NCBI GenBank assembly: GCA_009663185.1
Contig: VJZX01000013.1
Location: forward strand, 1-64,000
DNA length: 64,000 nt
Direction of reading: 5' to 3'
Source: Isoptericola halalbus
GTDB taxonomy: Bacteria; Actinomycetota; Actinomycetes; Actinomycetales; Cellulomonadaceae
In this document: positions 4,976-53,530 of the stretch, in pieces
How the letters are laid out: the number at the start of each line of letters is the position of its first letter
How positions within the stretch are numbered: position 1 is the stretch's first letter
Made by a program: the position numbers and the translations under genes
The notes under the pieces: model-generated
Database searches by the model: none
The model's input: the letters and a program-made list of their open reading frames with translations, nothing else
What the model was told of the DNA's origin: nothing

Positions 4976-7502
4976 CGACCTCGGGGGCCGGGGAGACCGA
5001 CGCGATGCGGTGCACCGCGATGGTCAGCTCGGCCTCGCGGTCGGCGTCGAGCGCGCGCAGCCTGCCGCCGTCGAGCCGCAGGGGCTTGAGCTCGCGCCGC
5101 TCCAGGCCGCCGGTGCCGCCGACCATCTCGACCCACACCCGTCGCCCGTCGCGCAGCGCGTCGTGCAGGAGGCCCAACGCCTCGCCCGGGTCGTCTGTTC
5201 CGCGGCGTCCGGCACGTGCGGCCACCCGCGCCGCGGCATGGGTCTGCCCGACGGCGGCACCCGCCCGGTCCGCACCGTTGCCGGTCGCGGCGCTCGCCGC
5301 GGCCGGGGTGCCGCCGTCGGCGAAGCTCCAGCCGTCGGCGGGGCTCCACCCGTCGGTGGGGCTCCAGCCGTCGGCCGAGATGCCGCCGTCGGCGGCGCGC
5401 AGCCGCGCGACGAGCGAGGCCCGCCCCTCGTCGGTGACGGGAGACGTCGTCGCCGAGGACGTGCCGCGCCGCCCGAGGCCGGAACGGTCGACCCGCGGCA
5501 CGGCGCGCAGCCGCCCGAGCACGCGGCCGTCGGGCCCCTCGAGCGCGGACAGCAGGCCGCGCTCGCGCAGCGCGTCGTGCAGCTCGGCGGGCGGGACGGA
5601 GGCGGCGAGCACGGTCGGCGCGAGCCGGACCAGCCCGAGCGAGGCGAGCCGCGGGTCCGCGACCAGTCCGGCGAGCACGGTCGGGTCGGCGGCCCGGACG
5701 TACGACGACGCGCCGCCGATCCGCAGTGCCTCGTGGCGGCGCGCCGTGTCCCGCACGAGGTACTCGAGCGGCTGCGGCACCGGCACGGGGGACCGGCGTG
5801 CCAGCTCACCGAGCAGCTCGTCGGCGGTGGTGCCGTGGTCGAGCGCGCGCGTGACCGACGCCGGCGTGAACCGCACCGTGAGGGCCGCGCCGCGCGACTC
5901 CGCATCGGCGGCGCGCTCGAGGAGCCGCGCGAGCGCCATCGAGGGGCGGCCGGGCACGATGCCCGTGAGGTCGCCCTGCAGCAGGACCTCCTCGACCTCG
6001 AGCGGCAGCACGGCGCGCAGCGCGTCCTCGAGCGCGGTGTCGGACCGGGCGTCCCCGGGCAGATGGTCGGGCACGTGGGCGAGGAACGCCCGGCCCGGCG
6101 CGGAGATCGCGCCCGCACCGGTGACGCCCAGCAGCGCGGCCTCGCGCAGCAGGCCCGCCACCGCCGGTTCCGGCGGCACCGCGCGCGGCGTGCGCCAGCG
6201 CAGCACCGTCATGACGTCCTCGAGCCCGAGCGCGGTCCCCGGCTGCTCCGCGAGCACCGACAGCACCTGCCCGCGCAGCCGCGGCACCCACGGCCGGTGC
6301 AGGTCGGGCGACAGCGGCGCCCGGACGTTGCCCTTCTCGTCGCGCGACCCCACCTGCCACGGGGTGCGGCGCGAGCCCGCCCACGGCTCGACGAGCAGCG
6401 CCCACCGCGCCGCGTCGTCGAGCTCGTCCCACGTGTCGGCGCGCGTCGTGGGCGCGTACGACGCCGGGGCGTCGCCGTCGTCGGTCACGAGGCCGGCGCC
6501 CGCGGCGAGCTCGACGACGAACGCCGCCGTCGTCTCGTCGATGCCGATCGCCTGCGCGGTGCGCCGGAGCTCGCGCACGCCGAGGCCGCCCGCCCGCAGC
6601 ACGGGCGGCGGCTCGTCCTCCCACGCCGCGATGAGCCGGTCGACCCACCGCACCAGCTCGAGCGCCGCGCTCACGGCGTCGGAGTCGGCGCTCGCGGCGG
6701 GGACGGTGCGGCCCTCGGGCCGTGGCGCGGCGAGCTCGGGCGAGCGATGGGTGCGTCCGCCGCGCAGCGAGAGCCCGACGTCGCGCGGCAGGAGCACGTG
6801 CCGCGCGTCGGAGCGCAGCAGCAGCCCGGCGTCGACGAGCGCGTCGACCGCGCGGCGCGGCCCTGTCCCCGGAGGCGGCACGACGCCGACCGGCGGGCCC
6901 CACGCGAGCGCGTCGAGCACCTCGCGCGCGCCGGGAGGGAAGGCGTCCCCCGACGTCCGTCTCTGTCCGTCGCCTTCCGGGGCCGGATCGGTGACGGACA
7001 GAGACGCAGGTTGCTCCGACGCCGGCCGGGCGGGGCCGAGCCCGGCGGGGTACGGGCCGAGCGCCTCGTCGAGCCCGGGCGACGGTCGCAGGTCGGGCTC
7101 GCCCGGCTCGCCGGCGTCCCACAGGAGCGCGGCCTCGAGCGCCGCGTCGATCATCTGCCCGACGACGGCACGCGCGTCGGGTGCGTCTGTCGCGGTGGGC
7201 TCGGTCTCGGTCCCCACGCGGTCGGCGCCGATCGCGGCGACCACGCGCTCGGGGCTCACCGGGTCGGGGCCGCCGTCGGACAGAGCGAGGACCGCCTCGA
7301 GGAGCTGAAGCGTCCGGGCGTCGGAGTGCGCGAGCGCGCGCTCGAGGCTCGTGCGGCTCGACGCGCGCGCCGCGAGCGAGCGCAGCGTCGAGGGCGACGG
7401 CGTCGCGAGGTCGGGCCGGGCGCGGAGCAGCGCGACGAGCGCGGCGTCCGGGCGGGTGCGGATCGCGTCGGTGAAGGTGCGTGGGGCCGGCGTACTGGCC
7501 AT
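4956..7502 (-). CDS. Helicase-associated domain protein (Helicase_C_3-like) with WYL-like C-terminus
   Basis: An 848-residue protein of the actinobacterial family encoded next to XPB (PF13625, XPB/Ssl2-like helicase-associated). The central part (about residues 390-640) includes 'EVEEVLLQGDLTGIVPGRPS' and a winged-helix-like segment. The last about 80 residues (EALGLLHDALRDGRRVWVEM to the end) resemble a WYL ligand-binding domain. A low-complexity linker with repeated DGWSP/DGWSF units lies at about 715-740. At about residues 160-185 a reverse-complement-symmetric DNA element (6958-7006) is translated in frame. It probably acts with XPB in DNA repair or regulation (inference from context). 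Confidence 0.85.
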   Translation of the reverse strand: MASTPAPRTFTDAIRTRPDAALVALLRARPDLATPSPSTLRSLAARASSRTSLERALAHSDARTLQLLEAVLALSDGGPDPVSPERVVAAIGADRVGTETEPTATDAPDARAVVGQMIDAALEAALLWDAGEPGEPDLRPSPGLDEALGPYPAGLGPARPASEQPASLSVTDPAPEGDGQRRTSGDAFPPGAREVLDALAWGPPVGVVPPPGTGPRRAVDALVDAGLLLRSDARHVLLPRDVGLSLRGGRTHRSPELAAPRPEGRTVPAASADSDAVSAALELVRWVDRLIAAWEDEPPPVLRAGGLGVRELRRTAQAIGIDETTAAFVVELAAGAGLVTDDGDAPASYAPTTRADTWDELDDAARWALLVEPWAGSRRTPWQVGSRDEKGNVRAPLSPDLHRPWVPRLRGQVLSVLAEQPGTALGLEDVMTVLRWRTPRAVPPEPAVAGLLREAALLGVTGAGAISAPGRAFLAHVPDHLPGDARSDTALEDALRAVLPLEVEEVLLQGDLTGIVPGRPSMALARLLERAADAESRGAALTVRFTPASVTRALDHGTTADELLGELARRSPVPVPQPLEYLVRDTARRHEALRIGGASSYVRAADPTVLAGLVADPRLASLGLVRLAPTVLAASVPPAELHDALRERGLLSALEGPDGRVLGRLRAVPRVDRSGLGRRGTSSATTSPVTDEGRASLVARLRAADGGISADGWSPTDGWSPADGWSFADGGTPAAASAATGNGADRAGAAVGQTHAAARVAARAGRRGTDDPGEALGLLHDALRDGRRVWVEMVGGTGGLERRELKPLRLDGGRLRALDADREAELTIAVHRIASVSPAPEVEERPAR
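6958..7006. repeat. Inverted repeat inside a coding sequence
   Basis: Perfect 14-base arms CGTCTCTGTCCGTC (6958-6971) and its complement (6993-7006) are separated by 21 bases. The element lies wholly within the 4956-7502 gene and is translated as part of a Pro/Asp/Gly-rich linker. It is unrelated in sequence to the GAGCGGAC palindrome family. Confidence 0.75.
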
Positions 7503-8784: not shown

Positions 8785-9618
8785 ATGGTCACCGCTGCAG
8801 CCGACGCGCCCCCGCGGACGCGCCGTGTGAGCGCCCGGGCGCGCAACGACGCCGTCCTGCTGGGGGCGGCCGACCTGGCGCGCGCCGCTGCCGAGGAGGT
8901 CGCGGGGTCACCCTCCGACGTCGGGGAGCACCTGGGTGCGGTCGCCGAGGGCGATCGCCTCATGTCCCACCGGTTCGCCGCCGCGATGCCGGGCTACCAC
9001 GGCTGGCACTGGACCGTCACGCTCGCCCGCGTGCCGCGGGGCCGCTCCGCGACGGTGTGCGAGGTGGAGCTCCTGCCGGGCGACGAGGCGATCCTGGCGC
9101 CCGAGTGGGTGCCGTGGTCGAAGCGCCTGCGCCCCGGCGATCTCGGCCCGGGCGACACGCTGCCGTACCGGCCCGACGACCCGCGCCTCGAGCCGGGCTG
9201 GGCGGAGCTGGGCGACGACGACATCGACGACGTCGCGCGCGAGCTCGCGCTGACCCGCGCGCGCGTGCTGTCCCCGACCGGGCGCGACGCGGCGGCCGAG
9301 CGCTGGTACCGCGGGTCGCAGGGCCCGACGTCGCCGGTCGCCGTCGCGTCCGCGGCCGAGTGCATGACGTGCGCGTTCCTGGTGCCGCTGTCCGGGCCGC
9401 TGGGTCAGCTGTTCGGCGTGTGCGCCAACGAGTGGTCGCCCGACGACGGCAAGGTCGTCTCGCTCGACCACGGTTGCGGTGCCCACTCCGAGACCGACAT
9501 CGACCGGCACGGGAGCGAGTGGCCCGCGGACGCGCCGCTCATCGACGACACCGTGATCGAACCGGTCGAGCTCACCAGCGGCGACGTCGGCGCCGGCAGC
9601 GACGACGAGACCACGTGA
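8785..9618 (+). CDS. DUF3027-domain protein
   Basis: 277 residues. The start at 8785 has GAGAGG 8-13 bases upstream. The segments GYHGWHWTVTLARVPRG, ATVCEVELLPGDEAILAPEW and VPWSKRLRPGDLGPGD are typical of DUF3027 (PF11228), a conserved actinobacterial family of unknown function. CMTCAF (about 193-198) and the C-terminal CGAHSE are candidate metal-binding residues (inference). Its GTGA overlap with the next gene implies translational coupling. Confidence 0.9.
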   Translation: MVTAAADAPPRTRRVSARARNDAVLLGAADLARAAAEEVAGSPSDVGEHLGAVAEGDRLMSHRFAAAMPGYHGWHWTVTLARVPRGRSATVCEVELLPGDEAILAPEWVPWSKRLRPGDLGPGDTLPYRPDDPRLEPGWAELGDDDIDDVARELALTRARVLSPTGRDAAAERWYRGSQGPTSPVAVASAAECMTCAFLVPLSGPLGQLFGVCANEWSPDDGKVVSLDHGCGAHSETDIDRHGSEWPADAPLIDDTVIEPVELTSGDVGAGSDDETT

Positions 9619-12600
9619 CCGCGGACGCCTTCGAGACCGCCGCGCTGCGGCACGCGGTCGCGGAGGCGTGGCTCGGGTCCGGCACCCGCTTCCGCGAGGA
9701 CGCGAACACCGAGGAGGACCACGCCCGCGGCTATTACCGCGACCGCGTGGTCGTCGAGCTCGCGCAGAACGCCGCCGACGCGGCGGCCCGCGCGGGCGTG
9801 CCCGGCCGCCTGCTGCTCCGACTCGAGCGCTGTGAGCGGACTTTTGGCCCACTCTCGGACGCTGAGGCGGGCCAAAAGTCCGCTCACAGCGGGTACCGGC
9901 TGATCGCGGCCAACACCGGGGCGCCGCTCGACGCCGAGGGCGTCGCGTCGCTCGCGTCGCTCCGTGCGTCGGCCAAGCCTGCGGACAGCGGGCAGGTCGG
10001 CCGGTTCGGCGTCGGCTTCGCGGCCGTGCGCTCGGTGTCCGACGACGTCGCGGTCCGCTCGCGAACCGGGGGCGTGCGGTTCTCCCTCGCCGCGACGCGC
10101 GCGCTGCTCGACGACGTCACGTCGGGCGGGACGGAGCGCGCCGCACGGCTGCGCGCGTCGTCCGGGGAGCGCGGCGACGCGCTGCCGGTGCTCCGCCTGC
10201 CCTTCCCCGCCCCCGCGCTGGGGGAGCGGCCCGACGACGACGGCCTCGCCGAGTACGCCACCGTCGTCAAGCTGACCCTGCGCGACGAGGCTGCGGTCGA
10301 GTCCGTGCGCGCCCAGCTCGACGCCGTCGACGACGGCCTCCTCCTCGCCCTGCCGTCCCTCGCGGAACTGCTCGTCGAGCGCTGTGAGCGGACTTTTGGC
10401 CCACTCGGAGGGCCGGAAGCGGGCCAAAAGTCCGCTCACAGCGGCGAGGTGGAGCGGCTCGGCGACGTGGGGGAGCGGTGGGTCACGGAGCGACGGTCGG
10501 GCGCGTTCGATCCCGACGACGTCGCGGACCTGCCCCTCGAGCAGCGGCGCGCGGACTGGTCGCTGGTCTGGGCGGTGCCGCGAGCGGGCGCCGCCGCCCC
10601 GCAGGTCCCGCCCGTCCTGCACGCCCCCACGCCGACAGACGTGCCGCTGACGTTCCCCGCCCTGCTCGTGGCGTCCTTCCCGGTCGACCCCGGCCGCCGC
10701 CAGGTCCATCCCGGGCCTGCCGCCGCACGCCTCGCCCGGGACGCAGGCGTCGCCTACGCCGACCTGCTCGCGCGCCTCGCCGCCGACCCCGACCACCCGC
10801 GCGACGTGCTCGGCCTCGTCCCCACCGGGCTGCCGGCGTCGGACGTCGACGCCGCGATCCGCGAGGCCGCGCTCGACACGCTGCGCGGCACCCTGATCCT
10901 CGCCCCGCCGCACGTCGCGGGCGGCACCCGAACGCCCGACACGCACCACCCGGTCGCGCCGCAGGACGCCGTCGTCATCACCGGCCCTGCGGGCGAGGAC
11001 GAGTCGCTCGTCGCCGCGCTGGCCCCGGTGGTCCCCGGCCTGGTGGCACTGCCGGCCCGCCACCACGCGGTCGCCCGGACGCTCGGCGCGGCGACCGTCA
11101 GCCTCGCTGACATCGTCGACGACCTCCCCGACGGCCTGCCGCCGCACCGCTGGCACGAGATCTACGCGGCTCTTGAGCACCACGCCGCCGACCCCGGCGT
11201 CCTCGAAGCCCTCGCCGGCGCCCGCGTCCCGCTCGCCGACGGCCGCACCGTCACCGGCGTGCGCGGCACCGTCGTCCTGCCGGAGGGGGAGGACGACCCC
11301 GCGCTCGCCGCGATCGCCCGGACGCTCGGCGTGCGCGTCGTCCACCCCGACGCCGCCCACCCGCTCCTGGTCCGCGCCGGGGCCTCACGCACCGACCCGC
11401 GCAGCCTCCTCACGGACCCCGGCGTGCGCGCAACGGCGCTCGCCGCGGCCGACACGCTGCTCGACGCCGGCCCGGACGCCGTCCGCCCCGGCCCGGTCGC
11501 CGGGAGCATCGTGGGCCCGGTCGACGCCGTCGCGCAGGAGATCGTCGACGCGGTCCTCGCACTCGTCCGTCTTGCCCTGCCCGCCGACGCGTCCGTGGCC
11601 GCCGAAGCGCCCGGCGCCGGGGCCCACCCGGAGATGCCGTTCTGGCTCGGTGAGCTGCCCGTGGTCACCGCCGACGGCGAGCTCGCGCCCCTGCGTGAGA
11701 CGACGCTCCCCGGCACGTGGGCCGCCGACGTGCTCGACGCGCTCGTGCCCGTCGCCGACGACGCCGCAGCCCGGTACGGCCCCGTGTCGCTCGCCGCCGC
11801 GGGCGCGCACGCCGGCCTGGCCGTGTACACCGTGCCCGACGTCGTCACCCCGGACATCGATGACCTGCCCGGCCTCGAGCGCGACGGCGACGAGGAGCAA
11901 GGCCCCGACGACCCGGCCGGATGGCTCGCCGTGTGGTCCGACTACCTCGCCTTCCTCGCCGAGCGCCTCGGCCCGGGCGTCACGGTCGGCGACGTCGAGG
12001 CGGTCGCCGACCTCGACGCCGTCGCGGACGACGCGTGGCCAGAGGTGCTGGGCCGTCTGGCCGGTGACCCCCGCACGCGACGCGCGCTGCTCGGCGCCCC
12101 ACGCCCCGGCACCCCCTCCTACACCGCGTGGTGGATGCGGGACCGGTTCGGCGCGCCCTTCGCCCTGCACGACGACGTGCCGCTGGTCCCGCCGGCGCCC
12201 ACCGCACTGGAAGGGCTCGACGACGAGGTGCGCCGCGCGCTCGGCGGGGTCGACGGGCTTGCCGAGCTCGACGCCGGCGACTGGCCGACGGTGCTCGAGC
12301 GCCTTCCCGCAGTCGGCGCGGCGGTACCGCTGCGCGAGGCGCTCGCGGTGTGGCGAGGGCTGACGGCGGTGGCACGCGGCCTCGACCCCGATCGCCGGAC
12401 GTCGGCACTCGACCCCCTTCCCGACCGGCTGCCCGCCCTCGAGGCGGGCACCGCCGTCGTGCACGCCGCGGACGACCTCGAGGTGGCCGGCAGCGCGCGG
12501 TGGGCGCAGCTCGTGCCGGTCGTGCCGGCCGACGAGGCCGACGCAGCGGCGCTCGCGGCCCTGCTCGACCTCCCCGTCGCGGGCGACGAGGGTGTGCCGG

Positions 12601-12893
12601 AGCCGGACTCGCCGGGCGAGCGCCGGCGGACCGACCCGCGGGTCGCCGCGCTCGACCCGCGCGTCGGTGACCACTGGTGGGCGCACGACGAGCTCGTCGT
12701 CGACGGCGTCGCCGTCGCGTGGTGGGTCACCGCCGACGGCGAGCCGCACGCGACGGGGGAGCAGGCCCTGGCTCAGGCGCTCGCGGACCTGCTGGGTCGC
12801 CCGGGCCTGGCCGCGCTCCTCGAAGCGGTGATCGCCGACCCGGACCAGGCGGACGCGCTCTGGTCGGCGACCGCCTGGGACGCCGACCGCTGA
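9615..12893 (+). CDS. Sacsin-N-like (HATPase) ATP-binding protein carrying two palindrome-encoded inserts
   Basis: The GTG at 9615 overlaps the upstream stop by four bases (GTGA); 1092 residues. The N-terminal about 150 residues form a GHKL/Hsp90-type ATP site: N-box ELAQNAADAA (48-57), ANTGAPLDAEGV (about 99-110) and glycine loop GRFGVGFAAVRSVSD (about 128-142). The remainder is a long actinobacterial extension of unknown role. Residues 72-93 and 256-277 (RCERTFGPL...EAGQKSAHSG) are encoded by two nearly identical 64-bp palindromes, inserted in the same phase. The first falls in the turn between the N-box helix and the strand leading to ANTG, so the fold may tolerate it. No stop or frameshift accompanies either insert. 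Confidence 0.88.
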   Translation: MTADAFETAALRHAVAEAWLGSGTRFREDANTEEDHARGYYRDRVVVELAQNAADAAARAGVPGRLLLRLERCERTFGPLSDAEAGQKSAHSGYRLIAANTGAPLDAEGVASLASLRASAKPADSGQVGRFGVGFAAVRSVSDDVAVRSRTGGVRFSLAATRALLDDVTSGGTERAARLRASSGERGDALPVLRLPFPAPALGERPDDDGLAEYATVVKLTLRDEAAVESVRAQLDAVDDGLLLALPSLAELLVERCERTFGPLGGPEAGQKSAHSGEVERLGDVGERWVTERRSGAFDPDDVADLPLEQRRADWSLVWAVPRAGAAAPQVPPVLHAPTPTDVPLTFPALLVASFPVDPGRRQVHPGPAAARLARDAGVAYADLLARLAADPDHPRDVLGLVPTGLPASDVDAAIREAALDTLRGTLILAPPHVAGGTRTPDTHHPVAPQDAVVITGPAGEDESLVAALAPVVPGLVALPARHHAVARTLGAATVSLADIVDDLPDGLPPHRWHEIYAALEHHAADPGVLEALAGARVPLADGRTVTGVRGTVVLPEGEDDPALAAIARTLGVRVVHPDAAHPLLVRAGASRTDPRSLLTDPGVRATALAAADTLLDAGPDAVRPGPVAGSIVGPVDAVAQEIVDAVLALVRLALPADASVAAEAPGAGAHPEMPFWLGELPVVTADGELAPLRETTLPGTWAADVLDALVPVADDAAARYGPVSLAAAGAHAGLAVYTVPDVVTPDIDDLPGLERDGDEEQGPDDPAGWLAVWSDYLAFLAERLGPGVTVGDVEAVADLDAVADDAWPEVLGRLAGDPRTRRALLGAPRPGTPSYTAWWMRDRFGAPFALHDDVPLVPPAPTALEGLDDEVRRALGGVDGLAELDAGDWPTVLERLPAVGAAVPLREALAVWRGLTAVARGLDPDRRTSALDPLPDRLPALEAGTAVVHAADDLEVAGSARWAQLVPVVPADEADAAALAALLDLPVAGDEGVPEPDSPGERRRTDPRVAALDPRVGDHWWAHDELVVDGVAVAWWVTADGEPHATGEQALAQALADLLGRPGLAALLEAVIADPDQADALWSATAWDADR
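9828..9891. repeat. Palindromic element copy 1, in coding sequence
   Basis: Perfect 23-base arms (9828-9850 and 9869-9891) starting CGCTGTGAGCGGACTTTTGG, with an 18-base centre. It is inserted in frame in the 9615-12893 gene, codon phase beginning at 9828. It shares the preceding TCGAG with copy 2. Confidence 0.95.
10380..10443. repeat. Palindromic element copy 2, in coding sequence
   Basis: Arms identical to copy 1 (10380-10402 and 10421-10443), with a different 18-base centre. It is translated in the same phase as copy 1 and gives the same peptide apart from the centre. It also follows TCGAG. Confidence 0.95.
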
Positions 12894-38392: not shown

Positions 38393-38427
38393 CGGACCGC
38401 TCGCAGAGGCAACCTCTGAGAGTGCTC

Positions 38428-38602
38428 GGTCGGACGCCGAACCCTGTCACCGATCGAGGACCACGGACGACCGCACGGCAGGGGCGGGGGACCCACATTC
38501 GGGCACCGGACACGGTGTCCTTGGGGTGAAGCCGGCCGGACCTTGGTCCGGACGGCCGGGTGCTTTCTCCCACCCGAACCCGACAGCTGACCTCGCAGGC
38601 GC
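38428..38602 (+). promoter_or_regulatory. c-di-AMP riboswitch (ydaO-yuaA class), first copy
   Basis: Conserved blocks in order: CCGAACCCTGTCACCG, GGCGGGGGACCCACATTCGG, CCTTGGGGTGAAGCCGG, a variable GC stem, GCTTTCTCCCACCCGAACCC, and GACAGCTGACCTCGCAGGCG. These match the ydaO consensus, including the GGGGTGAA and CCCGAACCCGACAGCT core. In Actinobacteria the class typically precedes resuscitation factors and NlpC/P60 hydrolases and turns them off when cyclic di-AMP is high. It ends 16 bases before the hydrolase start. Confidence 0.88.
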
Positions 38603-38617
38603 CAGGAGAGGTAGAAC

Positions 38618-43555: not shown

Positions 43556-43737
43556 GAGGCTTCGACCGGACGCCGAGTCCTGCCACCGGTCGGGGACCCC
43601 CTGACAGACACGGCAGGAGCGGGGGAACCACCTTCGGGCGCCAGAGATGGCGTCCTTGGGGTGAAGCCCGAGGGACCTCGGTCCCGACGGCCGGGTGCTT
43701 TCTCCCACCCGAACCCGACAGCTCACCTCGTAGGCGA
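43556..43737 (+). promoter_or_regulatory. c-di-AMP riboswitch (ydaO-yuaA class), second copy
   Basis: Same blocks as the first copy: CGCCGAGTCCTGCCACCG, GAGCGGGGGAACCACCTTCG, CCTTGGGGTGAAGCCC, GCTTTCTCCCACCCGAACCC and GACAGCTCACCTCGTAGGCG. The variable stem differs from the first copy, so both were kept under selection. It ends 16 bases before the hydrolase start. Confidence 0.88.
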
Positions 43738-43752
43738 CAGGAGAGGGAACAC

Positions 43753-44526
43753 GTGAACGAAGTACCCACGCGCGCCCGGCACCGCGCCGCGCGCCGTCCG
43801 CTCACGCCGATCAGCAAGCTCGCCCAGGACGTCAGCTCCTCGACCACCGGCCGCCGCGCCGCCGTCGTCGCCGCCGCCGGTGGTCTTCTGATGTCGACGT
43901 TCACCACCGCCACGGCCGCCCATGCCGCACCTGTCGCCGACGACGCGGCGAACAAGCTCAACACCGTCGACCTCGGTGCCCTGACCGACCAGGCCCGCGC
44001 GGCCCTCGAGGCGGCCCCCGTCGTCACGGTCGCGAACGACGCGAAGGTCTCGGTCGACACCCTCAGCCTCAAGAAGGTCGAGAACGCGATCACCCCGGCT
44101 CCTGAGCCGGAGCCCGAGCCGGAGCCCGAGCCCGAGCCCGTCGAGACCACGACCGAGGTCAGCGTCGCGGCGTCGTCGTCGATCGGTGACCAGGTCGCGT
44201 CGCTCGCCCAGCGCTACATCGGCACCCCGTACGTGGTCGGCGGCGCCAGCCCGTCCGGCTTCGACTGCTCGGGTCTCATCACGTACGTCTACTCGCAGTT
44301 CGGCGTCTCGCTCCCGCGTACGTCGAGCGACATGCGTTACGCCAGCAACGTGACGGTCGTCTCGGCGTCCGAGGCGCAGCCGGGCGACCTCATCTGGTCG
44401 CCGGGCCACATCTCGATCTACATCGGAGGCGGCCAGCAGGTCGAGGCGACCCGTCCCGGTGGCTGGATCGTCCGTCAGAGCAGCCTCTGGCAGTCGAGCC
44501 CGACCTTCCTGCGCGTCGACAGCTGA
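43753..44526 (+). CDS. Secreted NlpC/P60 peptidoglycan endopeptidase, second copy
   Basis: GTG at 43753 (GAGAGGGAA upstream); 257 residues. Same layout as 38618-39367: basic start, signal segment, PAPEPEPEPEPEPEP linker, catalytic Cys172 in FDCSGLITYVYS and His219 in PGHISIYIGG. The two proteins share the DDAANKLNTVDLGALTDQAR-type mature N-terminus, so they are paralogues. Riboswitch-controlled in the same way. Confidence 0.93.
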   Translation: MNEVPTRARHRAARRPLTPISKLAQDVSSSTTGRRAAVVAAAGGLLMSTFTTATAAHAAPVADDAANKLNTVDLGALTDQARAALEAAPVVTVANDAKVSVDTLSLKKVENAITPAPEPEPEPEPEPEPVETTTEVSVAASSSIGDQVASLAQRYIGTPYVVGGASPSGFDCSGLITYVYSQFGVSLPRTSSDMRYASNVTVVSASEAQPGDLIWSPGHISIYIGGGQQVEATRPGGWIVRQSSLWQSSPTFLRVDS

Positions 44527-44538
44527 CGACTTCTTCAT

Positions 44539-44605
44539 CATGGGCGCGGCCCCCGGCCCTGCTCGTCCGGCATCGCGCCGGCGGCAGGCGGGGGCCGCGC
44601 CCATG
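44539..44605 (+). terminator. Long hairpin after the second NlpC/P60 gene
   Basis: Stem CATGGGCGCGGCCCCCG / CGGGGGCCGCGCCCATG encloses a further GC-rich stem-loop. It starts 13 bases after the stop and separates the gene from the universal stress protein gene. Confidence 0.7.
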
Positions 44606-44731
44606 TGCGCAGCACCCTGATGTGTGGCGCGCCGCGCGCGCTTTGCTGTGCCTTGGTGTGCCTTTCGCTACGCTTGAACGGCGACGGGTCCCCGAGGCAG
44701 TGGTCCCGGTCACGCAGACGGGAGGCGTGAG

Positions 44732-45679
44732 ATGACACGACCGGAGGTCGTCCTGGTGGGCGTCGACGGTTCGGCGGCGAGCCTGCACGCGTTGGACTGG
44801 GCGACGGCGTACGCGAGGCGTGTGGGGTGGTCCCTGCACATGGTGTGCAGCTACTCGCTGCCGTCCTTCACGGCGGCGTCGCTCGACGGCGGCTACGCGG
44901 CGCTCGACGACACGGCGATCCAGGAGGGTGCCAAGGCGGTTCTGGCCGAGGCGCAGGCTCGGGTCGCGGACAGCGGCGTCCCGGTGACGGCGACGGTCGC
45001 GACCGGCGACGCCGCCGGCGTGCTGGTCGAGATGTCCAAGGAGCATGGCCTGGCGGTGGTCGGGACGCGGGGCCGTGGTGGCTTCACGGAGCGGCTGCTC
45101 GGGACGGTGTCGTCGGCGCTGCCCGCTCACGCGCACTGCCCCACGGTGGTCGTGCCGCACCGGGCCTCAGAGGGATCGGTCGACCCGAACCGTCGTGACG
45201 GCGACATGATCCAGGAGGTGCGCCGCATCGTCGTCGGCGTCGACGGATCACCCTCCGCCGAGGTGGCCCTCCGGCACGCCGTGGCGCAGGCGAAGGTCTG
45301 GGAGGCGGAGCTCGTCGCCGTGGCGGGCGTGCCCCTCGGCAGCGGGGCGGGGATCCTGGCGTGGCTGCCCTCGCAGATCGACCACGAGCAGGTGCTCGCA
45401 GACATCAAGGCCGGTCTGGACGCCATCGTCGACCGGTTCGAGGCCGAGAACCCGGGCATGACGATCAAGCGGCACGTGCTCGACGGCTCGGGGGCCGAGC
45501 TGTTGACGGAGTTCTCCGCGGCGGCCGATCTCATCGTCGTGGGCTCGCGCGGGCGCGGCGGCTTCCGCGGGCTGCTGCTGGGCTCCACGAGCCAGGCGGT
45601 GCTGCACCATTCCCAGTGCCCCGTGCTGGTCGTGACCCGCAAGTGCGACGAGGAGCTCCGCGAAGACGAGGTTGCCTGA
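44732..45679 (+). CDS. Two-domain universal stress protein
   Basis: 315 residues; RBS GGGAGG before the ATG. Two UspA domains (about 1-145 and 160-303), each with the ATP-binding pattern G-x2-G-x9-G-[ST]: GTRGRGGFTERLLGTVSSAL and GSRGRGGFRGLLLGSTSQAV. Both start with the VGVDGS strand. ATP-binding type, typical of actinobacterial dormancy or stress regulons. The 3' end is followed at once by palindromic element copy 3. Confidence 0.94.
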   Translation: MTRPEVVLVGVDGSAASLHALDWATAYARRVGWSLHMVCSYSLPSFTAASLDGGYAALDDTAIQEGAKAVLAEAQARVADSGVPVTATVATGDAAGVLVEMSKEHGLAVVGTRGRGGFTERLLGTVSSALPAHAHCPTVVVPHRASEGSVDPNRRDGDMIQEVRRIVVGVDGSPSAEVALRHAVAQAKVWEAELVAVAGVPLGSGAGILAWLPSQIDHEQVLADIKAGLDAIVDRFEAENPGMTIKRHVLDGSGAELLTEFSAAADLIVVGSRGRGGFRGLLLGSTSQAVLHHSQCPVLVVTRKCDEELREDEVA

Positions 45680-45680
45680 T

Positions 45681-45742
45681 GTTGTGAGCGGGCTGTTGGC
45701 CCACTCTCGCACGCTCTAGTGGGCCAAAAGCCCGCTCACAAC
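45681..45742. repeat. Palindromic element copy 3, between convergent genes
   Basis: 25-base arms (45681-45705, 45718-45742) with one mismatch and a 12-base centre; core TTGTGAGCGGGCTGTTGGCC. It lies two bases after one gene and contains the TGA stop of the convergent gene (45736-45738). It could act as a two-way terminator, though no T-run is present. Confidence 0.93.
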
Positions 45743-46653
45743 CGCACGCGGCGCACCGTGGCGCGGTGGATCGCCGAACGGACGCGATCGATGAGCCCCG
45801 CGGGGTCGTGAGTGATGTCGTCAGCGACGACGACGATGACCGTCCACCCGAGCTCCTCGAGCCGGCGACGCCGCTGGATGTCGTCTCGCCACTGCGCCTT
45901 GTCGGTGCGGTGCTGGTCACCGTCGTACTCGATGGCGATCCTGTACTGCGGGTAGAACATGTCGACGCGCTTGACGTAGTCGCCGTCGGGCGCCCACACG
46001 ATCTCGTTGACGACGGGGCACGGCAGGTTGGCGGCGACGAGCAGCAGGCGGGTGCGCGTCTCCATGACGGAGTCGGTGCCCGGGCGCATGCGCCCGATCT
46101 GCTCGCGCACCTGGACGATGCCCTTGACCTTGTGCGTGCGCTCGGCCAGGTCGGTCAGCTCGGCGATCGTGGTGCGCCGGCTCTTGCGGCGCATCATCGC
46201 GTCGCCGAGCACCACGACGTCGTCGGGCAGACGCAGGCCGGTCGCGACGTGCACGAACGTCTGGGCAGGCGAGGTCACCAGCAGGTCGCCGACCTTGACC
46301 GTCGCGAGGAAGGACTGCCGAGACCAGTGCGCGACGACGCCATCCCGGTCCGGGCGTGCGTCCGGGTCCCGGGTGACGACGTGGACGTCCTCGTCGTCCT
46401 CCAGGGTCCAGGGAACGTCGATGCCGAGCAGGCGCAGGGCGGTCACATGGCTGAACGCGACCCCGTCGTCGAGCACCTCTGCGAGGGCACGACACCGGGT
46501 CGCCAGTTCGTCGGAGGCCCCGGCCGGCAGGCGCACCCCGGTGAACGGTACTTGCCAGGTCTTGGAGCGCAGGCGCTTGCGCGTCAGCCCCGAGCGGAGT
46601 GCGTCGCGCACGGTGATCGGCGCGTCGGGTTCGTCAGGGATGGGTCTGAGCAT
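45736..46653 (-). CDS. DUF559 endonuclease-like protein
   Basis: 305 residues from ATG 46653. N-terminal winged-helix/AbiEi-like region ('VTALRLLGIDVPW'), and a C-terminal Vsr-like nuclease fold (about 205-300) with VKRVDMFYPQYRIAIEYDGD (catalytic D..E-x-DG), 'QHRTDKAQWRDDIQRRRRLE' and GWTVIVVVADDI. This layout is very common in Actinobacteria in many copies; function unproven, sometimes labelled AbiEi antitoxin. The stop codon lies inside palindromic element copy 3. Confidence 0.85.
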   Translation of the reverse strand: MLRPIPDEPDAPITVRDALRSGLTRKRLRSKTWQVPFTGVRLPAGASDELATRCRALAEVLDDGVAFSHVTALRLLGIDVPWTLEDDEDVHVVTRDPDARPDRDGVVAHWSRQSFLATVKVGDLLVTSPAQTFVHVATGLRLPDDVVVLGDAMMRRKSRRTTIAELTDLAERTHKVKGIVQVREQIGRMRPGTDSVMETRTRLLLVAANLPCPVVNEIVWAPDGDYVKRVDMFYPQYRIAIEYDGDQHRTDKAQWRDDIQRRRRLEELGWTVIVVVADDITHDPAGLIDRVRSAIHRATVRRVRL

Positions 46654-46709
46654 GCATCGCAGGGTGCCCGAACGCAGGCCAACCCCGCCGCGGCTATCCA
46701 CAGCCCCCG

Positions 46710-46765
46710 TGTGAGCGGACGTTGGCCCACTCTCGCTCGCGAGAGTGGGCCCAAGTCCGCTCACA
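46710..46765. repeat. Palindromic element copy 4
   Basis: About 27-base arms (46710-46736, 46739-46765) with two mismatches around a two-base centre; core GTGAGCGGACGTTGGCCCAC. It lies in the 122-bp space after the ABC permease stop and before the DUF559 gene, both on the minus strand. Confidence 0.92.
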
Positions 46766-46775
46766 GCGACGAGGG

Positions 46776-47609
46776 TCAGCGGCGGGTGCGGTAGAGGTGC
46801 ATCGTGATGGGCCCGAACACGGCGGTGAGCACTACGGCCGAGATGAGCACCCACACGATCTCGCCCCCGTCGGGCTGCCCGGCCATGAGCCCTCGCACGG
46901 CCGTGACCAGGTGCGACACCGGGTTGATGTCGACGAAGCGCTGGAGCGCCGTCGGCATGGTCGACGGGTCCACGAAGATGTTCGACGCGAACGTGAGCGG
47001 CATGAGCACCATCATCGACACGCCCATCACCGCGTTCGGCGTGCGCAGCAGCAGGCCCAGGATCGTGAAGATCCAGCTCAGCGAGAACGCGAACACGAGC
47101 AGCAGCGCCACGCCCAGCAGCACGCCGACCGCGCCGCCGTCGGGCCGGAAGCCGATGATGAGCCCCAGCCCGATGCACATGACCGACGCGACCGAGTACC
47201 GCACCGTGTCACCGAGCAGTGCGCCCACGATCGGAGCCGGCCGCCAGATCGGCAGCGAGCGGAACCGGTCGAACACGCCCTTGGTGATGTCGGTGTTGAG
47301 CGTGTAGCCCGTATATACGGTCACGATCACGATCGTCTGCACCAGGATCCCGGGCAGCAGGAACTGGATGTACGCGGTCGTCGAGCCGGCCAGCGCCCCG
47401 CCGAACAGGTAGGTGAACATCAGTGTGAAGATGACGGGCGTGACGAGGACGTCGAACAGCTGCTCGGGCACGTGCTTGATCTTGAGCAGCGCGCGCCAGC
47501 CGAACGTCAGTGTCGTCGACAGGGCCGACGGGCGTGCCGGGCGCTCGCTCAGCGCCACGGCCTGACGCAGGCTCGTGGTGGTCACTCGGGCCTCGGCGGA
47601 CGTGGTCAT
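46776..47609 (-). CDS. ABC-2-type permease (DrrB-like)
   Basis: 277 residues, six membrane spans. [20 protein letters not shown] at the start, [39 protein letters not shown] and '[14 protein letters not shown]' are DrrB-type signatures. It forms the membrane part of a drug or lipid exporter with the ATPase whose 3' end it overlaps by four bases. Confidence 0.93.
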
Positions 47610-48697
47610 CGGGACACCTCCTCTGCAGCGACGGTCTCCCGCTCGCGGTCGCCGTCGGAGTCCTCGTCGGGCAGCGGCTTGCCCGTGATCGTCAGGAACA
47701 CCTCGTCGAGGCTCGGCTGCCCGAGCGTGAACTCCGGCACCGCGATCCCCGCCTCGTCCAGGGCGGGGAGGATCTGCGCGACGGCGTGCGCGCCGTGGTC
47801 GGGCACGCGCGCGGTCAGCGCGTACGGGTCGGTCGGCAGCGTCGGCTCGGTCCCCAGCAGTCGCTCGACGACGACGGCCGCCTGCGCGCGCTGCGTGGCG
47901 TCGGCCAGGCGCATGGTCACCGAGCCCTGGCCGACCGACCGCTTGAGCTCGGTCGACGTGCCCTCGGCGATGACCTTGCCGTGGTCGATGACGGCGATGC
48001 GGTCGGCGAGCTGGTCCGCCTCCTCGAGGTACTGCGTGGTCAGCAGCACGGTCGCCCCGTCCTCGACGAGCACGCGCACGATGTCCCAGACCTGGTTGCG
48101 GCTGCGCGGGTCGAGCCCAGTGGTCGGCTCGTCGAGGAACAGCACGCGCGGCGCGAGGACGAGCGACGCCGCGAGGTCGATCCGCCGTCGCATGCCGCCC
48201 GAGTAGGTCTTGACCTGCCGCGCGCCCGCGTCCGAGAGGCTGAACGCCTCGAGCAGGCCGGCGACGCGACGTCGCGCTGCCGCGCCCTTGAAGCCGTAGA
48301 GGCGCGCGAGCATGAGCAGGTTCTCGACGCCGGTGAGGTCCTCGTCGACCGAGGCGTACTGCCCGGTGAGCCCGACGGCGGCCCGCACGGCGTCGGCATC
48401 GCGGGTGACGTCGTGGCCCAGCACGCGGGCCGTGCCGGCGTCGGGCTGGAGCAGCGTCGCGAGCATCCGCACGACCGTCGTCTTGCCGGCGCCGTTCGGT
48501 CCGAGCAGGCCGAAGACGCTTCCCGTCGGGATCGCGAGGTCGATGCCGTCGACAGCCTTGGTGACCTTCTTGCCGGACGTGAAGTGCTTGACGAGGCCGG
48601 TCGCCTCGACGGCGAGGTTCGGGCGGGTCGCGCCCGCCGGGGTGTGGCTCGCGACCTGCGTGTGGTTCGCGCGCTGCTCGATCGTGTCGTCGGACAT
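47606..48697 (-). CDS. ABC exporter ATP-binding protein (DrrA-like)
   Basis: 363 residues. Walker [10 protein letters not shown] (about 65-73), signature [12 protein letters not shown], Walker [13 protein letters not shown], then the DrrA-type C-terminal domain (about 250-330) with '[10 protein letters not shown]'. Drives the partner permease. Translationally coupled (ATGA overlap). Substrate cannot be deduced; family members export anthracyclines or glycolipids. Confidence 0.94.
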
Positions 48698-48761
48698 CAG
48701 GGGATCCCCTTCGTGTGGCTTGGATCACGCTAAGACGTACGACGCGCCACCGACAGGGAAT

Positions 48762-49157
48762 TCATCGCTCGGCGTAGGGCTCGCGCAGCACCCCGCGGAC
48801 CATGTCGAGGATCGCGTCGTCGTCGAGGCCCGACGCGCGGGCACGAGCCACGAGGCGCCGCACGTCCTCGACCAGCGGTTCGCGCGCGGGTTCGCGGCCC
48901 TGCCCGCGCGACGCCGCGCCGTCGGCGACCGCCGTGCCGGTCCGACGTCGGGACGTCACGACGCCGGACGCCTCGAGCTCGCGGTACGCGCGCTGCACGG
49001 TCCCGACGGCGATGCCGAGGTCGCGCGCGAGGTCGCGCGACGCCGGCAGGCGGTCGCCGGGCGCGAGCGCGCCGACCGCGACGAGCCCCGCGACCTGGCT
49101 GCGGATCTGCTCGTAGACGGGTGTGGGGGAGGTGAGGTCGACGGTGATGTCGCTCAT
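48762..49157 (-). CDS. GntR-family regulator (YtrA-like, short type)
   Basis: 131 residues. Winged helix with 'YEQIRSQVAGLVAVGALAPG', DRLPASRDLARDLGIAVGTV and QRAYRELEASGVVTSRRRTG, then a short about 50-residue helical dimerisation tail as in YtrA-type repressors. The start overlaps the upstream membrane protein stop (four bases), so they are one operon. YtrA-type genes usually repress neighbouring transporter operons; the DrrAB genes downstream may belong to this regulon (inference). Confidence 0.9.
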   Translation of the reverse strand: MSDITVDLTSPTPVYEQIRSQVAGLVAVGALAPGDRLPASRDLARDLGIAVGTVQRAYRELEASGVVTSRRRTGTAVADGAASRGQGREPAREPLVEDVRRLVARARASGLDDDAILDMVRGVLREPYAER

Positions 49158-50083
49158 GCGGGACCCGTCGGCCGCCGGTGCACGACGGCGGTGACGACGC
49201 CGACGACCGAGGCGATCCCGACGACGATCCCGACCACGGCGAGACCCACGGCGAGTGCGACGAGGCCGGGCGTGTGGAACGTCTCGCCCGACGCGGACAC
49301 CGGCCCGGCGGCGTTCGAGAGCGCGGCCCCCATGATCAGCAGCAGGAGCGCCGTCGTCACGCCGACGCAGAGCTGGACGCCGGCGAGGATGCGCGCCGCG
49401 GACGTGCGCCGCACCGCGTCGTCGTGCGGACGCGGCACCTCCGCGAGCGGCGCCCGCCGGGCCACCACCCGCAGCGTGCCCGCCGTCGCCAGCAGGGTCA
49501 GGGCCAGGCCGACGAGCAGCGGCACCCCGTACGCCCAGCCGGGGTAGGGCCCGCTCGCGCCGGTGATCACGCTGCCGTCGGCCGTGACGCGGACGGGGTG
49601 CGGCACGGCGGTGCCGTCGGTCGTCGCGGTCAGGCCCGCGACGACGAGCGTCACGGCCAGCAGCCCCGCCGCCGCGAGGAGCCACCGCAGGCGCCGGCCG
49701 CCCAGGTCGCGCACGGTGCGGCGCTTCAGGGGAGCCGAGCGAACGGCGCCGCGTGGCCGCGGCCAGGTGAGCTCGCCCGTGGCGCGCACCGCGCAGTACA
49801 CGAGCGCCACGGCGAAGGGCCCGACCGCCAGGGCTCCTCCCGCGACCTTGGGTCCCGGGAGCCAGGACGCCGACCATGTGACCGGCAGGCTGAGCACGGC
49901 GGCCGTGGTCGCGACGGCCGCGAGGATGCTGGCCGCGGCGATCCAGGTCTCGTGGCGCAGCGCCGTCCGCGCGGCCGCGCCGTCGTCGACCCCGCGTCGC
50001 CCGGCCGCCCACAGCACCAGGACCGCGACGAGCCCGGGAACGAGGACGAACAGCGTCCCGACGATCACGGCGTTCAGGGCCAC
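49154..50083 (-). CDS. Multi-span membrane protein, function unknown
   Basis: GTG at 50083 is chosen because GGAGG sits six bases upstream; 309 residues. Six to eight hydrophobic spans, including FVLVPGLVAVLVLWAAG, WIAAASILAAVATTAAVLSL, LRWLLAAAGLLAVTLVVAGL and GLVALAVGLAVVGIVVGIAS. A DUF1648-like role (permease partner of a GntR regulator) fits the context, but the signature is not clear. Confidence 0.75.
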   Translation of the reverse strand: MALNAVIVGTLFVLVPGLVAVLVLWAAGRRGVDDGAAARTALRHETWIAAASILAAVATTAAVLSLPVTWSASWLPGPKVAGGALAVGPFAVALVYCAVRATGELTWPRPRGAVRSAPLKRRTVRDLGGRRLRWLLAAAGLLAVTLVVAGLTATTDGTAVPHPVRVTADGSVITGASGPYPGWAYGVPLLVGLALTLLATAGTLRVVARRAPLAEVPRPHDDAVRRTSAARILAGVQLCVGVTTALLLLIMGAALSNAAGPVSASGETFHTPGLVALAVGLAVVGIVVGIASVVGVVTAVVHRRPTGPA

Positions 50084-50101
50084 GACAAACCTCCAATGAA
50101 C

Positions 50102-50119
50102 CAATGAGTTGCATCATTG
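50102..50119. promoter_or_regulatory. CAATGA-N6-TCATTG inverted repeat
   Basis: Six-base arms (50102-50107, 50114-50119), with an extra direct CCAATGA copy at 50092-50098. It lies just upstream of the membrane-protein/GntR operon and 50 bases before the divergent hydrolase. Candidate GntR binding site. Confidence 0.4.
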
Positions 50120-50169
50120 AATCAGCCGAGAGATCACGGGGCAACCCCGCCGCCGTTAGGGTGTCGCGC

Positions 50170-51549
50170 ATGTCCAGGAGTGTCGCCGACCACGTCAACG
50201 CCGCCTACCTCGCCGACTGGGCCGGCACCCAGGCCGGGTTCGCCCGCGTGCCCGGCGTCCAGCTCGCCGTGCTCGTGGGGGACGAGGTCGTGCTCGACGC
50301 CGCGTGGGGCGTCGCCGACGTCAGCACCGGCGAGCAGCTGCGCACGGACCACGTCTTCCGCGTCGCGTCGCACTCGAAGACGTTCACGGCCGTCGCGGTC
50401 GCGCGGCTGGCCGAGCGCGGCCTGCTGCGCCTCGACGACCCGCTCGAGGCGTACGTCCCGGAGCTCGAGGGGTCCGCCGTCGGGCACGTGACGGTGCGCG
50501 AAGCGCTCGGCCACACGGCGGGCGTTCTCCGCGACGGGCACGACGCCGACTTCTGGCAGCTCGGCGCCCCGTTCCCCGACCGTGCGGCCCTGCTGACCGC
50601 GGTGCTCGACGGCGAGGTGTTCGGCCGGGGCGAGCACTTCAAGTACTCCAACCTCGCCTACGGGCTGCTCGGCCTCGTGATCCGCGCCGTCACGGGCGTC
50701 CCGTACGCCGAGCACGTGGGCGCCGACCTGCTCCAACCCCTCGGCCTGGCCGACACCTTCCCCGAGCTCGACGACGAGATCGCGGGCCGCTGCGTCACCG
50801 GGCACAGCGGTCGCAGCCCGCACGACGACCGCCGCATCCCGGTCGCGCCGGTGACGACCGGCGGGCTCGCCGCGGCGACCGGGTACTGCTCGACGGCTCG
50901 CGACCTCGTGCGCTGGGCCGCCGCGCTGGGCGAGGGATCGGGCCTGCTGCGGCCCGAGACGCGCCGGCTGCTGCACCGCGACGAGTCCGTGATCGAGCAG
51001 CCGCATGCGCGCGTGCGCCGCTACGGGCTCGGGTTCGAGGCGCGCAAGATCGAGGGGCGACGCGTCGTCGGGCACTCGGGCGCGTTCCCGGGGCAGAGCA
51101 CCCGCACGTGGTGGGACCCTGCCGGGCGCGTCGCCGTCTCCGTGCTGACCAACGCTGTCGACGGGCCGGCCGACGGCATCGCGACCGGGCTGTTCGAGCT
51201 GGTCGTGAAGGCTCTGGACGGTGCCGGAGAAGGTGCCGTCACCAACCTCGACCACTGGACCGGTCGCTTCGCCAACCTGTGGGGCCTCAGGGACGTCGTC
51301 CGCCTCGGCGACCGGCTGTGGCTGATCAACCCGCGCGAGCCGGACCCCCTCACGGGAGCCGAACCGCTCACCGTCGACGGCGACGTGCTGCGTCCCGAGC
51401 CGCACGCGGGCTTCGGCCCGGTCGGCGAGCCCGTGCACGTGCTGCGGGACGACGACGGCACTCCGGCCGCGATCGTCGTCGGCGGGGTGACGTCGTGGCG
51501 CGCCGAGGACTACGAGCGCCAGCGCCAGGCCCACCTGGCGTCGTTGTAG
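50170..51549 (+). CDS. Serine hydrolase of the beta-lactamase/DD-peptidase (class C-like) fold
   Basis: ATG at 50170; 459 residues. Catalytic SxxK is S67-H-S-K70, Tyr motif YSN (159-161), and HSG near residue 302 in GHSGAFPGQ replaces KTG. An extra about 100-residue C-terminal domain follows. Cytoplasmic by sequence (no signal peptide), so more likely an esterase or peptidase than a beta-lactamase. Followed immediately by palindromic element copy 5. Confidence 0.9.
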   Translation: MSRSVADHVNAAYLADWAGTQAGFARVPGVQLAVLVGDEVVLDAAWGVADVSTGEQLRTDHVFRVASHSKTFTAVAVARLAERGLLRLDDPLEAYVPELEGSAVGHVTVREALGHTAGVLRDGHDADFWQLGAPFPDRAALLTAVLDGEVFGRGEHFKYSNLAYGLLGLVIRAVTGVPYAEHVGADLLQPLGLADTFPELDDEIAGRCVTGHSGRSPHDDRRIPVAPVTTGGLAAATGYCSTARDLVRWAAALGEGSGLLRPETRRLLHRDESVIEQPHARVRRYGLGFEARKIEGRRVVGHSGAFPGQSTRTWWDPAGRVAVSVLTNAVDGPADGIATGLFELVVKALDGAGEGAVTNLDHWTGRFANLWGLRDVVRLGDRLWLINPREPDPLTGAEPLTVDGDVLRPEPHAGFGPVGEPVHVLRDDDGTPAAIVVGGVTSWRAEDYERQRQAHLASL

Positions 51550-51611
51550 GTTGTGAGCGGACTTTTGGCCCACTCTCGGTCGCGAGAGTGGGCCAAAAGT
51601 CCGCTCACAAC
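51550..51611. repeat. Palindromic element copy 5, between convergent genes
   Basis: Perfect 29-base arms (51550-51578 and 51583-51611) around GTCG; starts GTTGTGAGCGGACTTTTGG. It fills the entire space between the convergent hydrolase and aminotransferase stops. This is the most complete copy and the best candidate for the intact form. Confidence 0.96.
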
Positions 51612-51612
51612 A

Positions 51613-52923: not shown

Positions 52924-52933
52924 ACCGCGGACT

Positions 52934-53434
52934 CTACCGGGCCCGGCGGTCGAGCCGCCGGTCCAGTCGTGCGAGCGAGACGTACATGAGCACACGCAGG
53001 AACAGTCCCACGGCCGCGGCGTTCAGCCGGCGGGGCCACGGACCGGAGAGGTACGCCTCCTCCCACCACACGACGCGGCACCGGTGGCCGTCCACCGGCA
53101 CGACGTCGAAGCCCGCGTCGCCGAGGAGCATCGGCCCCAGCTTGTGCAGCCGCGTGCGCCCGACGCGGCCGGCGGCGGTCGACGGGGTGGTGAGCTGCTC
53201 CACGACCATCCGGTCGGCGAACCCGCGCGCTCCGCGCCGGGCCCCCGGGCCGCTGACCATGGTGAACTCGTCGCCCACGGCCGGGCCGGCGGACACCCCG
53301 CCGTCGAGCCGCGTCAGCGGGATCCAGCGCGGATGGGTGCGCGGGTCGGCGACCCACGCGTAGGCGACCGACGCCTCGACCGGGACGAGACGAGTGACCT
53401 CGACCCGGCGGGCGCGGGGACCGCCGTCGGGCAC
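52934..53434 (-). CDS. SRPBCC-family (polyketide cyclase-like) protein
   Basis: 166 residues from GTG 53434. Helix-grip fold pattern: VEVTRLVPVEASVAYAWVAD at the N-terminus, central strands ending VVPVDGHRCRVVWWEEAYL, and a long C-terminal helix RRLNAAAVGLFLRVLMY. Binds a hydrophobic ligand; function unknown. The preceding spacer 53435-53530 holds a 62-bp palindrome. Confidence 0.85.
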   Translation of the reverse strand: MPDGGPRARRVEVTRLVPVEASVAYAWVADPRTHPRWIPLTRLDGGVSAGPAVGDEFTMVSGPGARRGARGFADRMVVEQLTTPSTAAGRVGRTRLHKLGPMLLGDAGFDVVPVDGHRCRVVWWEEAYLSGPWPRRLNAAAVGLFLRVLMYVSLARLDRRLDRRAR

Positions 53435-53455
53435 GCTACTGCTCCACGCTCGAGC

Positions 53456-53517
53456 GCCGACGGCGAGAGATTGTCACGAAACTCGGCCGCGTTTCGTGAC
53501 AATCTCTAGCCGTCGGC
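53456..53517. repeat. 62-bp palindrome of a different sequence family
   Basis: 27-base arms (53456-53482, 53491-53517) with one mismatch and an eight-base centre; core AGATTGTCACGAAAC. It occupies the space between two minus-strand genes. Same overall size as the GAGCGGAC family but unrelated in sequence. Confidence 0.9.
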
Positions 53518-53530
53518 CGCCGGGGCACGG

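Follow-up and report, generated by a model that had tools for sequence, protein, structure and literature searches.

A palindromic repeat of fixed length forms a genome-wide family in Isoptericola, and the two inserts that interrupt the sacsin-like ATPase gene of the window (the whole 64,000-nucleotide stretch of DNA analyzed, whose coordinates are used throughout) are dispersed, non-autonomous copies of this 62- to 64-bp repeat. Two further copies in the window enclose the gene of a DUF559/MTES_1575 endonuclease. By analogy with REPtrons, we consider it probable that nuclease and palindromes make up a selfish system of that kind around an unrelated nuclease; their association is observed, and from it we infer that the palindromes are mobilized.

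Results

Two palindromes in frame in an ATPase gene

The host gene (positions 9615 to 12893, plus strand) encodes a sacsin/Hsp90-like GHKL ATPase of 1,092 aa. It matched the NCBIfam model NF047352 above its cut-off (72.5 bits, cut-off 50), the Pfam SACS family below the Pfam cut-off (E = 7e-6), and the anti-phage TmtA models of PADLOC over part of the length only (4e-32); we take TmtA to be a component of the anti-phage system named Tiamat. The gene contains two palindromes of 64 bp, one at positions 9828 to 9891 (site S1, residues about 72 to 93) and one at 10380 to 10443 (site S2, residues about 256 to 277), each with perfect arms (23/23) around an 18-nt center; no strand is assigned to these or to the other palindromes of the window described below. 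As the original prediction had it, the arms of the two copies are identical, and coordinates and translation bore out that both are read in the same phase, in the frame of the gene and without a stop, as R-C-E-R-T-F-G-P-L...E-A-G-Q-K-S-A-H-S-G. Matches to the arm numbered 8 in the window versus a mean of 0.01 in 100 shuffles, and in three sequences as long as the window, generated by a first-order Markov model, no palindrome reached a score of 14, while both ATPase copies score 23. Three more copies, likewise anticipated at gene ends, were located at junctions J1 (45681 to 45742, directly behind a Usp gene), J2 (46710 to 46765, slightly decayed) and J3 (51550 to 51611, a fully paired 29-bp stem between convergent genes).

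An AF2 model of the first 430 aa of the ATPase (pLDDT 88, pTM 0.88) matched the folds of sacsin SR1 and Hsp90. In this model the S1 insert falls between the strands 64-72 and 94-100 and the S2 insert between the strands 249-256 and 278-283, so that both are predicted to be β-hairpin loops; their low confidence (pLDDT about 55 to 71) is as expected of floppy loops. We compared 30 homologue loci. Both inserts are present in G000 (the window's own genome) and in G007, and in G015 the first copy is whole and the second lies at a contig edge; most of the homologues lack the inserts. The two clean 22-residue gaps that had been predicted in alignments with insert-free homologues were not seen, because both loops vary in length anyway. 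The peptide itself occurred across these loci only where this palindrome is present, recognizably former or cut by an edge, the last being the second site of G015, where the DNA is cut by the contig edge.

Site S2 holds different palindromes in different genomes. Family A, to which the window copies belong, is found there in G000 and G007, as a decayed copy in G006 and as an edge in G015; B-like elements (family B is described below) occupy the site in G001, G008, G009, G012 and G016, and the palindrome at the site in G019, from another genus, is unrelated and 72 bp long. All of these palindromes keep the frame, and A and B are in different phases. A single S2 insertion inherited by all was rejected across the 30 homologue loci by the mixture of A, B-like and unrelated palindromes and by the unequal phases of A and B.

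These comparisons also bear on whether the inserts were selected as coding peptide, as originally suggested. Between G000 and G007 the ATPase gene differs at 554/3075 sites and the insert center at 15/36, whereas the arms differ at 4/88 sites, which amount to two compensated pairs. That the inserted peptides are selected for ATPase function is barely credible to us: sequence change is faster in the center than in the gene, with the arms conserved, the inserts are missing from most homologues compared and are modeled as low-confidence loops, and the peptide at the site is a different one where the palindrome is a different one, all of which outweighs the retention of both copies by G000 and G007 and of the first copy, with the edge of the second, by G015. 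In a Micrococcales metagenome-assembled genome, a gene of this ATPase family holds an unrelated 66-bp palindrome (L166, 4457-4522), also in frame but at a different site.

Repeat families in Isoptericola and beyond

Family A (GYTGTGAGCGG...TTGGCCC) has an 18-nt center and a repeat length fixed at 62 to 64 bp. Strict two-arm copies were found in 8/18 genomes of the genus, with at least 23 in G000, 22 in G005, 15 in G007, 9 in G015, 8 in G006, 6 in G001, 2 in G004 and 1 in G011, the true numbers possibly being higher, since assembly gaps adjoin some of the copies (N or poly-G runs: L019, L026 and G005). Searched with a single A arm and at most two mismatches, 7/38 genomes matched, the own genome included, and every one was an Isoptericola. 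Gaps of poly-G or N were seen at palindromes in G005 (contig C20, near 320 kb), L019 and L026; hairpins seem to break sequencing, and such repeats are therefore probably undercounted.

Related families are found in other species, and palindromic units overall measure about 51 to 79 bp. Family B (TTGTGGGCGCGATTTCTGGCCC, about 72 to 75 bp) occurs in G001, G008, G009 and G012 and weakly in G016 and G014. In G014, the arm of family D matched 16 times on one strand and 17 times on the other, and family E was seen twice within the 80 kb of that genome examined, at the flanks of the endonuclease gene described below and nowhere else; family H is shared by G002 and G017. The unrelated family C was found in 3/81 genomes of the wider bacterial family.

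Positions of the copies and coding phase

With genes called by a simple codon-usage caller written for this analysis, 5/23 copies of the own genome are coding, in four genes: the ATPase (two copies), a CT_A_B carboxyltransferase-type gene, an ABC transporter gene and MoeA. The repeat is thus in frame in several unrelated genes of this genome, and further cases were found in G005, G007 and G015. Coding copies made up 13/63 in copy-bearing loci of G000, G005, G007, G015 and G001, which were fetched because copies lie there, and with 2/4 strict window copies the count is 15/67. The claim that a palindromic element is carried in frame in coding genes of an actinobacterium was therefore supported by other coding copies genome-wide. 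Neither outcome named beforehand as refuting it came about: other coding copies exist, and among the 30 homologue loci the peptide kept to sites of this palindrome, present or former, or to a contig edge. Aligned with a solved homologue, the first copy in the biotin carboxylase gene of G005 appears as a clean 20-residue gap; the MoeA insert shows as 17 residues split over two gaps. Like the ATPase gene, the biotin carboxylase gene (L206) is interrupted twice in frame, its two copies lying 1.6 kb from each other.

The proposal that only one of six frames is tolerated did not hold. The first core base of the 15 coding copies is at codon position 2 in 12 and at position 1 in 3, so that two of three phases are in use, and a single-phase rule is not supported after collapsing orthologues by eye either (7 versus 3 in the two phases). 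Position 3, found in none, is the phase that would read TGA.

Non-coding copies of families A and B showed a REP-like preference for gene 3' ends and avoidance of divergent promoters: in 69/74 of those sampled, the caller placed a gene's 3' end no more than 30 bp away, and 1/74 lies between divergent genes. Gene ends and protein loops would be the places where insertion is survivable. Position behind stop codons also invites the explanation that the palindromes are bidirectional transcription terminators, selected at gene ends and homogenized by gene conversion, with accidental coding copies. Three window copies fold at -52.8, -50.9 and -60.2 kcal/mol, as such terminators might, and in G003 and G013, where the endonuclease gene described below was not found, the corresponding junction, g33/g35, has another, unrelated hairpin (judged by eye). 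A simple scan found no T-rich tail at the palindromes, and no intrinsic terminator (GC hairpin plus U-tract) was detected there within 44500-54500 under narrow stem and loop limits. Moreover, ordinary terminators are not expected to be alike genome-wide, to be in frame or to surround one type of nuclease in many genera, and we regard this explanation as quite unlikely.

Pairing of the arms and different palindromes at the same addresses

The two arms of a palindrome mostly change together. Among 64 distinct full-length copies of family A, columns 11 to 16, which were free in the search pattern, are Watson-Crick paired in 49 to 63 copies with 2 to 4 pair types; columns 4 to 10 and 17 to 21 were fixed by the pattern and are uninformative on pairing.

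Different families at one and the same site were also observed away from the ATPase. At one site of the CT_A_B gene, family A is present in G000 and G007, imperfect in G001 and decayed in G004 and G006; G014 has a family-D copy of equal length and phase at the same site, and 10/16 genomes aligned have no insert there. Of 25 conserved junctions of G000 and G001, 4 have a palindrome in both, 1 in G000 only, none in G001 only and 20 in neither (P = 4e-4), and at the four shared junctions the palindrome is A in G000 and B in G001. In a sample of 25 elements from 7 genomes, the mean arm distance (of 20 nt) was 1.63 within a genome versus 6.59 at the same locus between genomes (0/2000 permutations); arms cluster by genome, not by locus. 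G014 and G011, which are included in this statistic, are partly exceptional in that their J3 arms are unlike their J1 and J2 arms. Different palindromes at the same addresses, together with likeness within genomes, mark a short repeat that evolves in concert. The in-frame copies of the ATPase gene and the copies around an endonuclease gene, described next, suggest that these are tiny mobile elements of a family little known so far, which keep their addresses while their sequence is rewritten between one species and another.

An endonuclease gene between two palindromes

Between J1 and J2 lies g34 (45736 to 46653, minus strand), which encodes a 305-aa endonuclease with a REase_MTES_1575/DUF559 domain at about residues 226 to 295. 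The original prediction made no mention of this gene. The J1 palindrome overlaps the end of its open reading frame and provides its stop codon, TGA; J2 is its other flank. Both Pfam matches were above cut-off (PF18741, 5e-11; PF04480, 1.7e-6). Residues D231, E242, D244 and G245 are invariant in 15 relatives, and we take the acidic motif to be PD-(D/E)XK. A profile search gave weak matches over the catalytic part to 3hrl, an endonuclease-like protein (E = 0.0015), and to 3r3p, a mobile intron protein (E = 0.02), which is presumably I-Bth0305I with a Vsr fold. A mobile intron protein differs from g34 in its setting: no intron or intein was seen here, the flanks are palindromes, and dispersed copies occur without the nuclease gene. 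A single-sequence structure model of g34 reached pLDDT 36 and was set aside.

Orthologues of g34 were found in 11/18 genomes of the genus; the reading frame of the G017 copy is apparently broken, and a remnant of another copy accompanies the orthologue of G009. Relative to its neighbors the gene is inverted in 2/11 genomes (G000 and G011) and not in the other 9, and recombination between its two palindromes could account for the inversion. In the tree, the A lineage takes in the G001 gene with weak support (92/89), yet the palindrome of G001 is B-like; horizontal co-transfer of g34 and palindrome was rejected as the tree keeps G001 out of the B lineage, with modest support.

With the remnant excluded, 11/13 loci of the g34 clade have matching palindromes on both sides and 2/13 on one side. 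The flanks resemble copies elsewhere in the genome or region in G000, G007, G001, G008, G009, G012, G002 and G017. In G014, g34 is flanked by family E and the abundant dispersed family is D; in G011, the other palindromes in the region examined are unlike the g34 flanks. Among distant g34 paralogues, 3 of 12 usable loci (15 given) are double-flanked by palindromes of another kind. We also considered 31 standalone MTES_1575 genes of other genera, hand-picked by open reading frame length among the matches listed: 13 are double-flanked, each by a single family (8 groups by eye), and 18 are not. The palindromes at these flanks mostly differ from those of Isoptericola, and those of one group (L450) have ends common to family B.

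To other genes the pattern hardly extends. Among 599 called Isoptericola genes of 500 to 2000 bp in 14 regions, 7 are double-flanked by one family, all 7 are g34, and none of the 592 others is; by the same rule, 1/115 other genes from the other genera is double-flanked (Fisher P = 7e-19 and 2e-9 for the controls 0/592 and 1/115). In the one control match (L467) no Pfam domain was found, and the palindromes on its two sides are alike at their ends only. The best 30 MTES_1575 loci among the matches listed, 29 with open frames above 850 aa, include none (0/30) with a same-family pair, and these long proteins we take for helicases. Outside the window's bacterial family, 1 of 26 usable loci is flanked (29 given, 3 without a usable open reading frame), and the claim is therefore limited to that family. 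The association of endonuclease and palindromes is strong where present, and it is neither universal nor wide.

The same data allow another reading, in which ordinary REP- or MITE-like elements are spread by another enzyme and the endonuclease gene merely travels along, with palindromes serving it as places to land or recombine. The 18/31 standalone endonucleases without a double flank, among the matches listed, are what this would lead one to expect, as are the abundance of family D around a g34 flanked by family E in G014 and the genomes that hold copies and in which g34 was not found, namely G006 (8 copies) and G015 (9), both fragmented drafts, and G005 (22), with an assembly gap at the locus. 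But the double flanks are nearly confined to these nucleases (0/592 and 1/115 among others) and recur with other palindromes elsewhere, and Y1_Tnp (PF01797) was found in none of the 18 genomes of the genus. Mobilization by RAYT or IS200/IS605 enzymes was rejected on this result, the same profile having matched 5/14 control genomes; a resident RAYT is thus unlikely as the mover. For MITEs, the comparison gave a nuclease as the gene between two copies, and no transposase unit was met among the loci examined. We find this reading of the endonuclease as a passenger unlikely, if deserving of attention.

One copy of family A in the own genome (L197, contig C54 near 10044) starts 5 bp behind a gene with a PF18741 domain; among long PF18741 genes of other genera, a palindrome of any kind lies close to the stop in 2/30, which is approximate since some stops were not reached.

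Discussion

The reading we favor, a selfish system resembling a REPtron, draws on the likeness in arrangement. The endonuclease and its flanking palindromes would be autonomous as a unit, in the way that a REPtron is made up of a RAYT gene with its REPs. The palindrome that a nuclease recognizes, and then nicks or cuts, may be its own, probably in extruded form as a hairpin or cruciform, and repair from other copies would spread and homogenize the palindrome family. Copies would persist at places that tolerate them: downstream of stop codons, with the hairpin perhaps acting as a terminator, and in protein loops, if length and phase preserve the frame. A broader version is more tentative, and we would sooner doubt than endorse it: that DUF559/MTES_1575 endonucleases and the palindromes they recognize are a class of selfish element, in which each nuclease lineage owns one palindrome and in which cutting and copying overwrite older palindromes at the same addresses, such that genomes swap families even in protein genes. 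Several points weigh against the REPtron-like reading. Neither transposition nor target duplication nor a strain-level empty site was seen, and 62 bp is little length for a repeat to be repaired from another copy. The 18/31 standalone endonucleases without a double flank, the single flanked locus among 26 outside the bacterial family and the genomes with copies in which g34 was not found weigh on the same side, as does G011 with its differing palindromes. Against strict pairing of nuclease and palindrome stand G001, where a g34 placed weakly in the A lineage is accompanied by a B-like palindrome, and G014, where the abundant family D does not flank g34.

A role of the palindrome as a protective or regulatory site of the nuclease, an operator or decoy retained as in an addiction module, would fit palindromes that adjoin and partly overlap the ends of the nuclease gene and arms held by compensated changes. 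Alone, however, it gives no account of how copies came to occupy tens of sites, coding genes among them, and copies are present in genomes where g34 was not found; we think it very doubtful.

Compared with known systems, the repeat resembles REPs in its positions and REPtrons in flanking an enzyme gene. REPs are found at gene 3' ends and convergent junctions, with some intragenic, in the available part of PMC3733652, and the Isoptericola palindromes are distributed likewise. That source describes REPs as 20 to 40 bp with a GTAG or CGTC tag and reports intragenic REPs from several phyla, its main text, as far as available, never using the word Actinobacteria. By inspection by eye, no constant unpaired GTAG or CGTC tag was found beside the stem among aligned copies. 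In REPtrons, according to the part of PMC8266576 at hand, palindrome and enzyme co-evolve, the enzyme is a TnpA-REP of the HUH superfamily, and its gene lies between two palindrome copies with other copies scattered. An enzyme gene flanked by its own palindromes was found here as well, with another enzyme class: unlike in REPtrons, the unit is about 51 to 79 bp, the genomes of the genus yielded no Y1_Tnp, and it is a DUF559/MTES_1575 nuclease gene that the palindromes flank.

The analogy to Rickettsia palindromic elements (RPEs) drawn in the original prediction fits in effect, RPEs being short palindromic repeats in frame in unrelated protein genes (parts of PMC10969869 and PMC3733652), but membership by descent is not supported. 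RPEs belong to a different phylum and their unit is longer (about 150 bp in the available portion of PMC10969869). Their repeats are described as becoming less identical with age (PMC6649704, in part), whereas the Isoptericola arms largely stay paired and alike within a genome. A nuclease neighbor is not named for RPEs in the available portions of PMC10969869, PMC3733652 and PMC6649704, and the comparison is by description only. Mitochondria of Nematomorpha also have perfect palindromes in coding genes, with template switching discussed as the source of arm identity (PMC6649704, same portion); these differ in being animal mitochondria and in that the arms encode conserved protein sequence, and that portion does not mention a repeat family with a nuclease. 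A literature search, from whose scope subscription journals mostly fell out, yielded no report of Isoptericola palindromes or of DUF559 genes with palindromic repeats.

The candidate enzymes are common. PF18741 domains occur in 100/101 genomes of the window's bacterial family, long multi-domain proteins included, and g34 relatives in 75/198 genomes of the phylum. If each such nuclease owns a palindrome, DUF559/MTES_1575 genes would gain a role and REP-like repeats a second enzyme class. If true, concerted evolution of short repeats would become testable in a bacterium. The inserts also show that repeat DNA has repeatedly made protein loops longer in Actinomycetota.

Other elements of the window

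An Rfam scan for known RNA families found nothing at the palindromes; two c-di-AMP riboswitches (RF00379, 66 and 63.5 bits) lie elsewhere only, on the plus strand at 38425-38615 and 43561-43752, 5 kb apart. An unrelated 62-bp intergenic palindrome with the arm GCCGACGGCGAGAGATTGTCACGAAAC is located at 53456-53517, with none at that junction in G001, and possibly represents another family. Palindromes with a common CGTCTCTG occur in four genomes, at 6958-7006 of the window and in regions of G010, G013 and G017, and are perhaps a second superfamily.
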